This document shows positions 1,938 through 35,495 of a stretch of DNA of 39,899 bases, in pieces. Every line of letters begins with the position of its first letter. The first letter of the stretch is position 1. Source of the stretch: Rhodospirillales bacterium (GTDB lineage Bacteria > Pseudomonadota > Alphaproteobacteria > Rhodospirillales > CAMCUA01); contig CANITX010000007.1 in assembly GCA_947470575.1 (NCBI GenBank), positions 1 through 39,899 on the forward strand. The letters are read 5' to 3'. The position numbers and the translations under genes are program-made. Under the pieces are notes generated by a model. The model did not search any database, was not told the origin of the DNA, and was given only the letters and a program-made list of their open reading frames with translations.

Positions 1938-3233
1938 ATGAACCTACCCACGACGGAGACGGCACGCATCGCCGTCATCGGCCTCGGCTATGTCGGTCTG
2001 CCTTTGGCTCTGGCTCTGTCCCGGCACTTTCCCACCCTTGGATTCGATATCGATAAGGGACGTATCGCCGAGCTTCGCCGCGGCATCGACCGGACCGGTG
2101 AAGTCGAGCCTGCCGTCTTGCGTGCCGGCCTGCTCAGCCTGGCTGACGATCCAGCATCCCTGGCGGACCGCAATGTCTTCATTATCGCAGCACCCACCCC
2201 CGTCGATGCCGACAACAGGCCCGACATGTCGGCTCTGCTCGCGGCCTGCCGAACGCTGGGCGCCCATCTTGGCAAAGGCGGCGTCGTGGTGTCGGAAAGC
2301 ACCGTCTATCCCGGCGTCACCGAGGATGTCTGCGGACCGGTCATCGAAGCGGCATCGGGACTAAAGGCCGGCCATGATTTCTTTCTCGGCTATTCGCCGG
2401 AACGCATCAACCCGGGCGACCGGGAGCATACGGTCGAGCGCATCCGCAAGGTCGTCGCCGGCCAGACCCCCGAAGTCGCGGCGCTGCTCGCCGGCCTCTA
2501 CGGCGCTGTCACCAGCGGCGGCGTTTACGTCGCCCGCAACATTCGCACAGCCGAGGCCGCAAAGGCCATCGAGAACGCACAACGCGATATCAATATCGCC
2601 TTCATCAACGAAGTGGCACAGATCGCCCGCCTCTTGGGCCTCTCCATTCACGACGTCCTAGAAACGGCTGGCACCAAGTGGAACTTTCTGCCTTTCCAAC
2701 CTGGTCTGGTCGGGGGCCATTGTATCGGCGTTGACCCCTACTACTTGGCGCATTGCGCCCAGGCATTGGGCCATGAACCGGAAATCATTCTGGCGGGGCG
2801 GCGCATCAACGACGGCATGGCCGATTTCATCGCCGGTTGCGTTGACGAAGAAATCCGCCGGGATGGCGGTGGCACCTATGCGCGAATCCTGCTGTTGGGT
2901 CTCACATTCAAGGAGGATGTACCGGACCTGCGCAGCTCGAAGAGCGTCGACCTGATCCGCGGCCTCACCAAGCGCGGACACACGGTCGATGTTCACGATC
3001 CGATGGCCGATGCCGATGAGGCGCGGCGGCACTACGGCGTCGAATTGCTGACCGGCCTGGAGAAGGCCGCCGGCTATGACGCCTTAGTTGGCGCTGTAGG
3101 CCATCGCAGTTACCGTGACTTTTCCGCCGCCACCTTCGAACGGCTATTGCGCCCAGGCGGCTTGATCGCCGACATCAAGGGAATTTGGAGCAAGACAAAG
3201 CTGCCCAAGAACCAGCGCCGCTGGCAACTCTAG
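1938..3233 (+). CDS. tviB: nucleotide-sugar 6-dehydrogenase, TviB/WbpA type
   Basis: A 431-residue NAD-dependent UDP-sugar dehydrogenase that oxidises C6 of a UDP-hexose or UDP-N-acetylhexosamine to the uronic acid, a precursor for capsule, exopolysaccharide or O-antigen. The N-terminal Rossmann motif G15-L-G17-Y-V-G20 is intact. ERINPGD (155-161) is present, and the catalytic Cys is C262 in G-G-H-C-I-G-V-D-P-Y-Y. This motif form and E-N-A-Q-R-D in the central helix resemble the TviB/WbpA/WbpO branch rather than short UDP-glucose dehydrogenases. The C-terminal domain has the usual T-F-K-E-D-V-P-D-L-R-x-S-K. Its stop is only 4 bp from the stop of the convergent heparinase gene. Substrate (GlcNAc, GalNAc or Glc) cannot be fixed from sequence. 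Confidence 0.93.
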   Translation: MNLPTTETARIAVIGLGYVGLPLALALSRHFPTLGFDIDKGRIAELRRGIDRTGEVEPAVLRAGLLSLADDPASLADRNVFIIAAPTPVDADNRPDMSALLAACRTLGAHLGKGGVVVSESTVYPGVTEDVCGPVIEAASGLKAGHDFFLGYSPERINPGDREHTVERIRKVVAGQTPEVAALLAGLYGAVTSGGVYVARNIRTAEAAKAIENAQRDINIAFINEVAQIARLLGLSIHDVLETAGTKWNFLPFQPGLVGGHCIGVDPYYLAHCAQALGHEPEIILAGRRINDGMADFIAGCVDEEIRRDGGGTYARILLLGLTFKEDVPDLRSSKSVDLIRGLTKRGHTVDVHDPMADADEARRHYGVELLTGLEKAAGYDALVGAVGHRSYRDFSAATFERLLRPGGLIADIKGIWSKTKLPKNQRRWQL

Positions 3234-3237
3234 ACGC

Positions 3238-4908
3238 TCACGCTTCACGTGCAAGCCGCCACTTGACCGTGGTGAGGTCACCGTTCACAGCGCCGCGCAC
3301 GACGATCTGCTGGCAACGTCGCGGCACGCCGGGTGCACCCAGATATACGCTGTCCTCCAGCTGCGGCCGCCCGCCGGCAGCACGGAATCGCCAACCGTCC
3401 CCAGAGGGCAAGCGCAGAATGACGCTATCCCCACTGGCCGCCAGCGAGGCCCGTACGCCCGGATGCAGGTGAAAGCGAATGGCGAAGGAATGACCGCCAC
3501 GCGCCGAACTTCGCGAAACACGGGCCAGAACATCCTCGCCGCGGAGATCGCCGCCGTCATCTGAAACGTAAAGTAGGCGCCTGTGGATGAGGCCCATGAC
3601 ATCGGCATAGCCGTCGTGACTGGCCTCGATCAGAACATTGCCGTCCACTTCGCGCCGCTCGCAGGTCACAGCGGAGGGGCGGCGGCGCAGCCCGCCGGCA
3701 ACGACCTCGGCACTGTTTTTCTCATCGACCGAAAGGGTCGAATGAGCGGCCGAGCCACGCATTGCCAAATGCCACTGCACATCGTCGACCGTGCGAGCCC
3801 CGCAATTGACGATCAACCGGTCCTTGCCGATGCTCATCTCGAAGGAGAGCGCCCCGGCATGGGCAACCGAGTCATAACCCGGTAAGGGCGGAGCCCCACC
3901 GTCGAATAGAAGGAGGCTGCGCCCGGCGGCGATCCGCTGAAACCCGCTATGCGGTGCATTGGTCGGCGGTCGGCCGCGCGAACCGCTAAGCGCCAGGATC
4001 GTCTGAACCTGATGTTCGTCATCCTCCAAACCGTCATGGAAAAGACCCAGCCGGCCATCGCCATAACGAAGGGCGCGCAACATGGGTGCAACGCGATCGA
4101 TGGCGCCCTGAAGATCGGCCGGAACTTCAACATGCCCCGTGATCAACAGGTTGCGGATGTCGATCATGTCGCGCAGTACATGGGCGAGGATGGCTGGACT
4201 TCGCTGCACATGGCCACCATCGGGTAGCAGCTGCCGACTGAGTTCACGAGACAGTGCCGCAATACCAGCGGCCAGCATGCGATCCTGTCCAGCCAAACAT
4301 ACGCCAGCAGCCAGCAATCCCTTGATGGCGGCGAAACGTCGATGATCGGCTGGTTCTTCTTCCACTGTACGGACGAGGTGACGCGCCTGGCGAGCGGCAG
4401 ACCGCAACAGGCGGGCCGCCATTTCAGGCTCAGCGGCAGCGCGTAGAAATCCAAAATTTGCAAACCAGGAAAACAACCGGTTGCCGACCACGTCCGGCCG
4501 CCAAGCCAGTCTGGACCAATTGTCGAATGTCTGTATCCAACCATCGGTCAAACCGACAGCTCTGCGCCGAGCTGCCTCGGACCCCAGGGCACGAAGGTCG
4601 CGCAACCAAGTGAATCCATGCAGCTCGGCTCGCGCGACAATGCCTGTCGGTGGACGGCGCCAAGGATCATCGGACAAGCGGACTCGATCGCCAGCCACGA
4701 TCAAATCGCCTTCGACCATGACCGAGCCCGTGTCGCGATCGCCCGGCCACGGATCGGCAGGTGTACCCCTTAACTCGGCCGGGGCTCTGTTGCCCAGGAG
4801 AAGGCCATATAGCGGATTGGCGTAAACGAACGGCAACAGGCGAGCACGGACGGCCGGCGCAATGCGGCCCAGGGACATACGAAAAGCAGCTGTATTGGCG
4901 GCAGGCAT
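3238..4908 (-). CDS. heparinase II/III family protein
   Basis: A 556-residue protein with the alphaproteobacterial heparinase II/III architecture. An all-helical toroid-like N-terminal half contains W-I-x-x-F-D-N-W and N-R-L-F-S-W-F-A-N-F. A beta-rich C-terminal half from about residue 320 carries F-Q-R-I-A-A-G-R, L-S-F-E-M-S-I-G and A-H-S-T-L-S-V-D. The family includes uronic-acid polysaccharide lyases, but many members next to rsmB are uncharacterised and presumed to act on a surface glycan. No clear signal peptide is visible. In related genomes this gene is commonly the immediate neighbour of rsmB; here a 2.6-kb gap filled by two plus-strand glycan genes separates them. Start is the first Met; an internal Met at residue 11 is an alternative. 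Confidence 0.88.
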   Translation of the reverse strand: MPAANTAAFRMSLGRIAPAVRARLLPFVYANPLYGLLLGNRAPAELRGTPADPWPGDRDTGSVMVEGDLIVAGDRVRLSDDPWRRPPTGIVARAELHGFTWLRDLRALGSEAARRRAVGLTDGWIQTFDNWSRLAWRPDVVGNRLFSWFANFGFLRAAAEPEMAARLLRSAARQARHLVRTVEEEPADHRRFAAIKGLLAAGVCLAGQDRMLAAGIAALSRELSRQLLPDGGHVQRSPAILAHVLRDMIDIRNLLITGHVEVPADLQGAIDRVAPMLRALRYGDGRLGLFHDGLEDDEHQVQTILALSGSRGRPPTNAPHSGFQRIAAGRSLLLFDGGAPPLPGYDSVAHAGALSFEMSIGKDRLIVNCGARTVDDVQWHLAMRGSAAHSTLSVDEKNSAEVVAGGLRRRPSAVTCERREVDGNVLIEASHDGYADVMGLIHRRLLYVSDDGGDLRGEDVLARVSRSSARGGHSFAIRFHLHPGVRASLAASGDSVILRLPSGDGWRFRAAGGRPQLEDSVYLGAPGVPRRCQQIVVRGAVNGDLTTVKWRLAREA

Positions 4909-33250: not shown

Positions 33251-34177
33251 TCAGGCAGGGTTGCGCCGGCGAGCTGCCCCGAGAGCGACCAGCCCGAGAC
33301 CGAGCAGGGCGAAGGGCGCCGGCTCCGGCAAGGCTACCGATGTCGCCCGCACCGAACTGTCGAATTCGACGTTGAAGGTGTAGTCGCCGATGGCGTCGAT
33401 GTGGAAAACGTTGCCCAGGGTGATGTTCTGCTCGCCCGCCGGACCGGCGACACCGGGACTTTGGGCCGTCGACAGCGCCCGAGTGGTCTGGATGTGGGAG
33501 ACAGTAGCAATGGTATCGCCATCGTGGATCAGGTTGACTCGCAGGCTCAGCGTGGCCCGTGCGGTTTCGTTGGCCGCAGTGGTTTCGACCCGCACCTGAC
33601 GCAGGGCGGCAAGGCTCCACGATAGGTCGATCTCGCCGCCCGAGGCGTTCAGCTCGGCCTGCGACACGTTGAAGGTCCAGGCCATCGAATTGGCCGTGCC
33701 CGTCTGCGCCGAACCGGCCGTTCCGCCGGAGACCTGAGCACCCGACTGCGTGCCGAAATGGCCGCCCGGACCGCTCAGGATGACCGTGTTGGACATATGC
33801 GTGTCGGCGACGGCGTAATTGGTGGCCGGGCTCAACAGGGTCGGACGGTTAGCGCCGAAATAGGCATTGTCGGCGGCGATGCCCAAGGTTCCGTTGACGA
33901 TCTGCAACTGGTTGACCGTGCCGCCCGAAGTGGTGGAGGTCAACACGGTCGGAGAGCTGATCGTGCTGCCGTTCAGCGTCGCGCTGAGTTGCTGAGAGGT
34001 GAATTCGAAGCTGTTGAAACCGCCGAATTCATTGGTCAGCGAAAAAGACGTCACTTCCAAGGCGCTATACGCAAAGGCCGTCGCGTTGGCTGGCGAGGAG
34101 AACGACGTCAATTGGCTGAGTATTGCGGCACCCGTTAGTACCTTTAGCCCAAGAACAACATGCTTCCTTGACATCAT
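33251..34177 (-). CDS. PEP-CTERM sorting domain-containing protein
   Basis: A 308-residue exported protein. The N-terminal signal peptide (about 1-33: a short basic start, V-L-T-G-A-A-I-L-S core, A-N-A cleavage region) is followed by a Ser/Thr/Asn/Gly-rich beta-type body. It ends in L-P-E-P-A-P-F-A-L-L-G-L-G-L-V-A-L-G with a basic tail (A-A-R-R-R), a textbook PEP-CTERM signal: Pro-Glu-Pro, one transmembrane helix, Arg cluster. Exosortase removes this tail and anchors the protein to the surface or exopolysaccharide matrix. I placed the start at the ATG of 34177; the adjacent ATG at 34174 has better spacing to GGAG. No exosortase is in the window. A CRP-like promoter lies upstream. Confidence 0.92.
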   Translation of the reverse strand: MMSRKHVVLGLKVLTGAAILSQLTSFSSPANATAFAYSALEVTSFSLTNEFGGFNSFEFTSQQLSATLNGSTISSPTVLTSTTSGGTVNQLQIVNGTLGIAADNAYFGANRPTLLSPATNYAVADTHMSNTVILSGPGGHFGTQSGAQVSGGTAGSAQTGTANSMAWTFNVSQAELNASGGEIDLSWSLAALRQVRVETTAANETARATLSLRVNLIHDGDTIATVSHIQTTRALSTAQSPGVAGPAGEQNITLGNVFHIDAIGDYTFNVEFDSSVRATSVALPEPAPFALLGLGLVALGAARRRNPA

Positions 34178-34270
34178 TTGGCTCCAAAATCCCGAACGCC
34201 ACCCGGAGGGGCTGTAATGTTTCAAGAGACAACGCGACAGCTTGCGGGCATTCCGCAAATGTCATGGCCA

Positions 34271-34313
34271 ATAATCTCAGGACAACTCACGCTTGGCTGT
34301 GAGCTGTGTCACA
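34271..34313 (-). promoter_or_regulatory. CRP-type site and class II promoter of the PEP-CTERM gene
   Basis: TGTGA (34298-34302) and TCACA (34309-34313) with a 6-nt spacer match the CRP consensus half-sites exactly. On the minus strand GATTAT (34276-34271), a 4-of-6 match to the -10 box, would set the start at about 34264. The site centre (34305.5) is then at -41.5, the exact class II activator position. The leader to the ATG would be about 87 nt. Which CRP/FNR-family protein binds is unknown. Confidence 0.6.
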
Positions 34314-34409
34314 CAGGGCAACAGATGAGTTGAAAACATCGATGACGCAGGCAGCCGTAATTCCGCCGGACTCGCATATAACCAATAATCATAATAACTT
34401 AATGGGATT

Positions 34410-34435
34410 TATGCACAGGGTCTATGCACAGAGTC
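34410..34435. repeat. two tandem 13-bp repeats with DnaA-box-like cores
   Basis: TATGCACAGGGTC (34410-34422) is followed directly by TATGCACAGAGTC (34423-34435), 12 of 13 identical. With the preceding T the first unit contains TTATGCACA (34409-34417), which fits the DnaA box TTWTNCACA; the second has one mismatch (CTATGCACA). An AT-rich run lies immediately upstream (about 34378-34410). Two boxes are too few to call an origin; another regulator site is equally possible. Confidence 0.45.
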
Positions 34436-34574
34436 GATACCTCACCCGATGTCGCCGCATAGGAACTCGAACGCCGCATGCGGCAGTATTTTCCTTGCGC
34501 CAAACCTTGCCTATCGCCGTGAAGCAGGCTTGTTCCCGTTGGCGAGATCGCCTTCAGACAAATCGCTTGGGCGC

Positions 34575-35495
34575 TCAATTCCGCGGCAATCTTCGCTGTC
34601 CGCTTGCCAGCCACGCCGCGCATTCCAGACCGAGGCGGTCACGCGCCGCGGCCTCGTAGCGCTGGTTATCTCCGGCGGTCAGTACATCGCGCCAGCGGCC
34701 GTTGGTGCCCTTGTTGATAAATACGTCCGCGCCGCCATCCCAAATAGCACCGCCGAGCGGCGTGCTTTTCGTCGCGTTGGCTTTCATCCAGTCGAAAGTG
34801 CAGTGCTCGACTTGCGCTGGAAATCGCGCTTCGTCGATGTCGACGCCGAGGAAGCCGGCGATACGTCGCATCGCCCCCGGCAGATCTCGCTTGAGTTCGT
34901 CGAAATGCAGCAGCATGAGATTCGGCAGATCGCGAATTTCCCACCAACTGCGGATGTTCTCCCAGAACGGCCAGAACGGGTGGCCATCCCGATCCATCCA
35001 ATCGAGGAAATATTGACGGATCGATGCCGGCGGTGGTTCGATCGGCGGGCCGACGCGACCCGGCGTATCGTTGAGCAATTGGTACCAGAGTGCATTGGCG
35101 TTGGCATGATGGTTGTACATGCTCCACACCACGTCCCGCCCGTCGCGGGCGACATAAATATATTTGGCGCGGGGCGAATAAACGAGGGCATCGACCGGCA
35201 GGTGAGTCTTGATGAAGCGCCGGTGCTGCTGGGCTTCGAGCGCTTGGAGCTTCGCCTCGGCCGGCGGCACGCGCAAATCGAGCCAGGGCGACATGTCGGC
35301 CACCGGCAGGTCTTCGGCCCCGTCGAACAGCAATTGGGCGACGATCTGCTGCGTCCAGGTGGTACCGGACTTGGCATAGGTCGCGATCACGATGTCGTCG
35401 TCGCGAAACGCGAAGCCGTTCCATACGGTGCTGTCGAAATGGTGATTGTGCAGTTCGCGCACCTTCGTCGGCCATTGCGACGGCGTCGACAGCAT
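34575..35495 (-). CDS. PAPS-dependent sulfotransferase
   Basis: A 306-residue sulfotransferase-1-family enzyme, which moves sulfate from PAPS to a hydroxyl or amine. The 5'-phosphosulfate loop A-K-S-G-T-T-W (41-47), the catalytic H98 in K-T-H-L-P and the 3'-phosphate motif A-R-D-G-R-D-V-V-W-S (116-125) are present. The C-terminal F-I-N-K-G-T-N-G-R-W-R-D matches the K-G-x-x-G-D-W/R-W element. No signal peptide: cytoplasmic. The ATG at 35495 has GGAG 7 nt upstream. The acceptor is unknown; proximity to glycan genes suggests a carbohydrate or lipid acceptor, but no PAPS synthesis genes are in the window. Convergently oriented to nothing nearby; it has its own promoter region at 35496-35696. Confidence 0.92.
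   Translation of the reverse strand: MLSTPSQWPTKVRELHNHHFDSTVWNGFAFRDDDIVIATYAKSGTTWTQQIVAQLLFDGAEDLPVADMSPWLDLRVPPAEAKLQALEAQQHRRFIKTHLPVDALVYSPRAKYIYVARDGRDVVWSMYNHHANANALWYQLLNDTPGRVGPPIEPPPASIRQYFLDWMDRDGHPFWPFWENIRSWWEIRDLPNLMLLHFDELKRDLPGAMRRIAGFLGVDIDEARFPAQVEHCTFDWMKANATKSTPLGGAIWDGGADVFINKGTNGRWRDVLTAGDNQRYEAAARDRLGLECAAWLASGQRRLPRN

Follow-up and report, generated by a model that had tools for sequence, protein, structure and literature searches.

We conclude, with a probability of roughly 0.78, that positions 34264 to 34313 of the window form an activator-dependent class II CRP-type promoter of a PEP-CTERM gene, and that this promoter belongs to a wider regulon. The window is the whole stretch of 39,899 nucleotides that was analysed; it is contig C7 of a 3.43-Mb MAG (here G000; 277 contigs, 91.7% complete). 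The features of the locus are as follows.

34298 to 34313, minus strand: CRP-type operator TGTGA-N6-TCACA, reading TGTGACACAGCTCACA; exact match, kept in the congeneric orthologue.
34271 to 34276, minus strand: -10 hexamer GATTAT, 21 bp past the TCACA of the operator.
34264, minus strand: predicted transcription start (A), placed from the position of the -10 hexamer.
34242 to 34258, minus strand: leader inverted repeat TTGCGG-N5-CCGCAA, whose arms are for the most part conserved in the congeneric genome and whose loop differs there.
33251 to 34177, minus strand: gene of an EDSAP-1 family PEP-CTERM protein (308 aa; alternative ATG at 34174), the presumed target.
34575 to 35495, minus strand: upstream sulfotransferase gene (PF00685) on the same strand as the target; its end bounds the intergenic region.

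In the proposed mechanism, a CRP dimer, most likely of the single CRP/FNR-family protein encoded on contig C157, would bind TGTGACACAGCTCACA with its centre near -41.5. The bound protein would stand in for the -35 element and aid RNA polymerase at (TGn)GATTAT, with transcription activated from near 34264; the binding, the activation, the cAMP ligand and the start point are what we infer. The promoter would be one of a wider CRP regulon that takes in part of the PEP-CTERM set of the genus, while another part would have sigma54-type promoters.

The perfect half-sites named in the original prediction were borne out. The sequence at 34298-34313 is TGTGAGCTGTGTCACA, and it is the sole TGTGA-N6-TCACA with no mismatch in the window. 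The 0.04 sites first expected by chance stand as a figure for uniform base composition; the expectation falls to 0.017 at the 62% G+C of the window and to a mean of 0.01 in dinucleotide shuffles of the window, where an exact match was met in 1 of 100. With up to 2 mismatches allowed, the window holds 4 matches, which is below the 9.35 of the shuffles, and therefore only the exact match stands out. Many sites in the genus have a YGGNCR-like spacer, a pattern that the N6 of this operator (GCTGTG) does not follow.

GATTAT had been placed on the proper strand with the operator centre at exactly -41.5, and the 21-bp gap was confirmed. The start is assumed to lie 7 bp after GATTAT (34264), which puts the operator centre (34305.5) at -41.5, so the word "exactly" rests on this assumed start. 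The -10 match is weak (4/6), and a TG at 34279-34278, seen by eye, precedes it by one base. No sigma70-type -35/-10 pair was found in 34160-34580. A start at 34264 would give a leader of 87 nt, in which the inverted repeat lies. A leader RNA hairpin was considered and rejected, since the folding of either leader, that of the window or that of its orthologue, was no better than that of shuffles (z -0.88 and -1.01). Upstream of the operator, TATGCACAG was observed by eye as a direct repeat at 34410-34431, with a distance of 13 bp between its two copies; the repeat was not seen in the alignment with the orthologue.

The product of the presumed target gene scored 100.9 bits against NCBIfam NF041538 (EDSAP-1), only just over the cut-off of 100, and its tail exceeded the Pfam PEP-CTERM cut-off (22.0 against 20.7 bits). 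The intergenic region between the sulfotransferase gene and the PEP-CTERM gene is 397 bp long. A target on the opposite (plus) strand was set aside, no conserved gene being apparent there on a view that did not take the ORFs one by one. The sole congeneric genome compared, G001, is also a MAG (the two are 92 and 94% complete), and its contig 8 is the public record CAMCUA010000008.1. Gene order in G001 is the same as at the window locus, and the orthologue of the PEP-CTERM gene has 74% protein identity and an upstream gap of 399 bp.

Conservation of the site ahead of orthologues had been set as one of the points on which the prediction could fail, and the G001 orthologue carries TGTGATGCCGCTCACT, with one mismatch, at the same aligned place as the window operator. 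The two operators agree at 9 of 10 half-site positions and at 3 of 6 spacer positions, against an identity of 49% at the fourfold sites of the gene; at that rate, the probability of keeping 9 of 10 half-site bases is 0.009. The probability of a site with at most 1 mismatch anywhere in 400 bp is 0.001-0.004, before position and spacing are considered. At the same 21-bp gap from its operator G001 has AATAGT, and both species have GTGTCCTG ahead of the -10-like hexamer and a repeat TGCGG-N5-CCGCA past the presumed start. This comparison concerns one close orthologue only. A search of 40 genomes of relatives gave that orthologue, one weak tail match in the same genome as the window and weak matches in G025 and G010, and a contig search for further orthologues returned only the record of G001 itself and L077 at 31%. 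The site is absent at this place from four distant EDSAP-1-like homologues (L077, L023, L025 and L031; 28-31% identity). When 8 pairs of sites from G000 and G001 were compared, 7 aligned base for base, among which the pair L061/L099 is uninformative because it is nearly identical throughout; in the eighth pair (L056/L092), the sites lie in the same gap of both species and do not align. For L057/L098, L066/L103 and L065/L100, a -10-like hexamer was seen by eye at gap 21 in both species.

The motif is also frequent beyond this locus. Exact copies of TGTGA-N6-TCACA number 10 in G000 (none for a backwards-pattern control, and 1.48 expected from base composition), 12 in G001 (control 1) and 310 over 60 genomes of the order (control 26). 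With at most 1 mismatch, the counts of motif and control are 37 and 5 in G000 and 32 and 8 in G001. The spacing to a -10-like hexamer was evaluated for 75 exact sites among the matches listed (310 were counted), which come from 14 genomes and give 150 flanks, with an approximate -10 weight matrix. A hexamer was found at gap 21 in 23 of the 150 flanks; the counts at the remaining gaps between 11 and 31 have a mean of 7.1, with 12 as the next-highest. The peak remains without the window (22/148) and in other genera alone (17/106 against 6.3), and 72 of the 75 sites gave the same result. Gap 21 is therefore the commonest -10 position around the motif in the 14 genomes, and the -41.5 placement is unlikely to reflect a lucky choice of hexamer. 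The genes adjoining the other sites are mixed, with no clear theme (M20 peptidase, SBP_bac_5, YajC, Hsp90, response regulators, GDSL). At three loci (L063:3001-3033, L064:3001-3033 / L104:2962-2994, and L095:3001-3033), two CRP-like sites stand head to tail, 17 bp centre to centre, which is closer than two CRP dimers usually sit.

Nine genes of G000 lie over the Pfam PEP-CTERM cut-off; each was assumed to start at the first ATG of its frame, which may be wrong for some. Besides the window gene, two carry a CRP-type core with a -10-like hexamer: L032, where AGTGATGAACATCACT is followed by TAGAGT at gap 22, and L034, where AGTGATAACCGTCACT is followed by AATAAT at gap 21. Sigma54-like sites precede L036, L037 and L038 (1, 2 and 1 mismatches to TGGCAC-N5-TTGCA, respectively), and neither a CRP-type core nor a sigma54-like site was found within the limits used for L035, L039 and L041. 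At L041 the right half-site alone is present, and CATATT stands at gap 21 from it. Its first 150 positions (L041:1-150, the start of G000:C14) are a contig-end sequence common to the starts of several G001 contigs; this sequence extends halfway into the position that a CRP site occupies in G001, and the repeat may thus have replaced half of the L041 operator. The G001 relative, L095, has TGTGACGTCGATCACA and GGTGACGGCGGTCACT followed by CATATT at gap 21, but as it was chosen for its exact site it does not count as an independent case. For L036, the G001 relative L208 has kept a sigma54-like site, TGGCACGAAGATTGCT, as seen by eye. This site is kept between L036 and L208, yet no PrsR lies over the curated cut-off in G000 or G001 (TIGR02915; best scores 362 and 365 bits, respectively, against 502.6).

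Eight PEP-CTERM genes of G010 and G025 were read, and sigma54-like sites precede 7 of them. The exception is L028 of G025, whose CGTGACCGCCATCACA is followed by TAAAAA at gap 21. At L031, a sigma54-like site and a distant core occur together. Altogether, a core with a -10 hexamer at gap 21-22 stands ahead of 6 PEP-CTERM genes in 4 genomes (the window gene, L032 and L034; L022 and L095; L028), and none of these 6 has a sigma54-like site. As a control, 918 approximate genes of G001 were examined: the core lies upstream of 5, and a -10 hexamer at gap 20-22 accompanies 2 of these, one being the orthologue of the window gene. In a smaller control with three site-carrying contigs left out, there were 855 genes and 3 cores, none with a -10 hexamer. 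When compared with the 2 of 918, the GTGA-N6-TCAC core with a -10 hexamer at gap 21 or 22 is enriched ahead of the other PEP-CTERM genes of G000 (2/8; Fisher P 4e-4), and also when G010 and G025 are added (3/16; P 4e-5).

As for the regulator, exactly one protein exceeds the PF13545 (HTH_Crp_2) cut-off in each species, on C157 in G000 and on C108 in G001. Comparison with E. coli CRP entries gave matches at about 5e-11, and matches to this protein with E<=1e-15 were found in 36 of 40 genomes. The recognition helix reads TTRETVARVL (RETVAR), with the R-E-xx-x-R pattern present. We take it to resemble the RETVGR of E. coli CRP, its R, E and R presumably matching R180, E181 and R185. The orthologues for which the frame was read (L114-L117 and L119) share this helix. 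Over the last 170 codons, dN between G000 and G001 is 0.020 and dS is 1.23, and this C-terminal part is under very strong purifying selection. In both MAGs the N-terminal frame (first ~60 codons) is broken, at a different point in each (L065, G000:C157:3348-7680, 3030-3900; L100, G001:C108), and the Pfam cNMP_binding match begins at position 25 of 89; other genomes of the order have open CRP frames of 230-270 aa. The interruption is either an assembly error or true decay. Class III cyclase matches number 8 in G000 and 6 in G001. A conserved one-mismatch site (L065:3001-3016 / L100:3001-3016) lies immediately after the stop codon of the CRP gene, with a -10-like TAACCT/TAAGCT at gap 21 pointing away from that gene. 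Past the L100 site in G001, a short ORF of ~34 codons was seen by eye, and it is possibly a CRP-driven small gene.

Conservation of the site in the congeneric genome, the peak at gap 21 and the single CRP/FNR protein in each congener largely support the CRP-type control that was first proposed. Several points weigh against it: the broken N-terminal frame of the one CRP gene, the single close orthologue available for comparison, the lack of the site in the four distant homologues, the atypical spacer, the weak -10 matches, and the chance that these incomplete MAGs miss another regulator. A different role for the same protein is unlikely, though it deserves some weight: the CRP protein could repress from this site, or it could bind with another ligand in place of cAMP or with no ligand at all, in which case the class II spacing would not imply cAMP-dependent activation. 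Such a reading would suit the frame interruption that both MAGs show in the cNMP-binding portion of their one CRP gene, and also the cAMP-independent CRP-family protein of Deinococcus described in PMC11253593. On the other hand, the missing -35 element and the shared 21-bp gap fit activation, and both genomes encode class III cyclases. We consider it improbable that the palindrome is the site of another regulator with a TGTGAC-GTCACA-like target, its CRP likeness being coincidental. The paired sites 17 bp apart at L063, L064/L104 and L095 point that way, and so does the added inner C/G carried by the genus consensus of the sites. Against this stand the class II spacing to the -10 hexamer, the conserved RETVAR helix and the enrichment of the motif across an order that has the CRP protein.

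The two remaining explanations are very improbable, and both were rejected. At 1.48 exact sites expected in G000, one or two of its ten could be chance palindromes without function, but G001 has retained the window site at the aligned position (P about 0.001-0.004 for a site of at most 1 mismatch within 400 bp), and this conservation together with the genome counts led us to reject chance. Sigma54-like sites ahead of L036, L037 and L038 in G000, and by eye ahead of L208 in G001, lend some plausibility to a sigma54/PrsR promoter that drives the gene while the CRP site only modulates it. For the window gene we rejected such a promoter because no site was found: a -24(GG)/-12(GC) search with up to 4 mismatches gave none in either upstream region (397 bp here, 399 bp in G001), and no PrsR passes its cut-off. 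The class II CRP-type promoter is the reading that we retain.

Class II CRP-dependent promoters of the E. coli galP1 type have TGTGA-N6-TCACA at -41.5, no -35 element and an extended -10. The window promoter is alike in its operator centred at -41.5, the missing -35 and the extended -10; it differs in its G+C-rich spacer, its PEP-CTERM target and its host, an uncultured alphaproteobacterium, and activation here is a prediction. It would be a known kind of promoter with a class of target that appears unreported. An earlier tie between cAMP and PEP-CTERM reportedly lies at the enzyme level and not at the promoter level.

The original prediction held that PEP-CTERM genes are better known for sigma54/PrsR control, and PMC1569441 and PMC9850573 agree; sigma54-like sites also occur in this genome. 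According to the former, which also names PrsK/PrsR/PrsT, a sigma54-type site stands ahead of 99 of 167 PEP-CTERM genes from proteobacteria, and the latter gives RpoN dependence of one PEP-CTERM gene. The sigma54/PrsK-PrsR systems share with the window locus the target class and the single gene behind a long intergenic region, whereas the window locus has a CRP operator, lacks the -24/-12 motif and has no PrsR over the cut-off. PMC12530212 places c-di-GMP riboswitches ahead of PEP-CTERM genes in Methylophaga, which is likewise a second-messenger input to such genes; control there is at the RNA level and by c-di-GMP, whereas the window has a DNA operator. In a literature search with subscription papers mostly outside its scope, "PEP-CTERM" and "cAMP receptor protein" were not found together, and in the accessible parts of the literature naming both "PEP-CTERM" and "Crp", the two were not linked.

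The cues for exosortase-sorted surface proteins are little known, and those in print are sigma54/PrsR and, in one case, c-di-GMP riboswitches. On balance we lean slightly towards the view that the PEP-CTERM genes of this alphaproteobacterial order are split between a sigma54 type and a CRP class II type, with a defined subset of exosortase-sorted surface proteins switched by the global CRP regulator. Since the site is kept in a related species and also stands ahead of some sister genes, part of the family may answer to a global nutrient signal as well as to the dedicated switch usual for it. If this is true, a CRP branch would couple some of the surface coat of freshwater bacteria to carbon or energy state.
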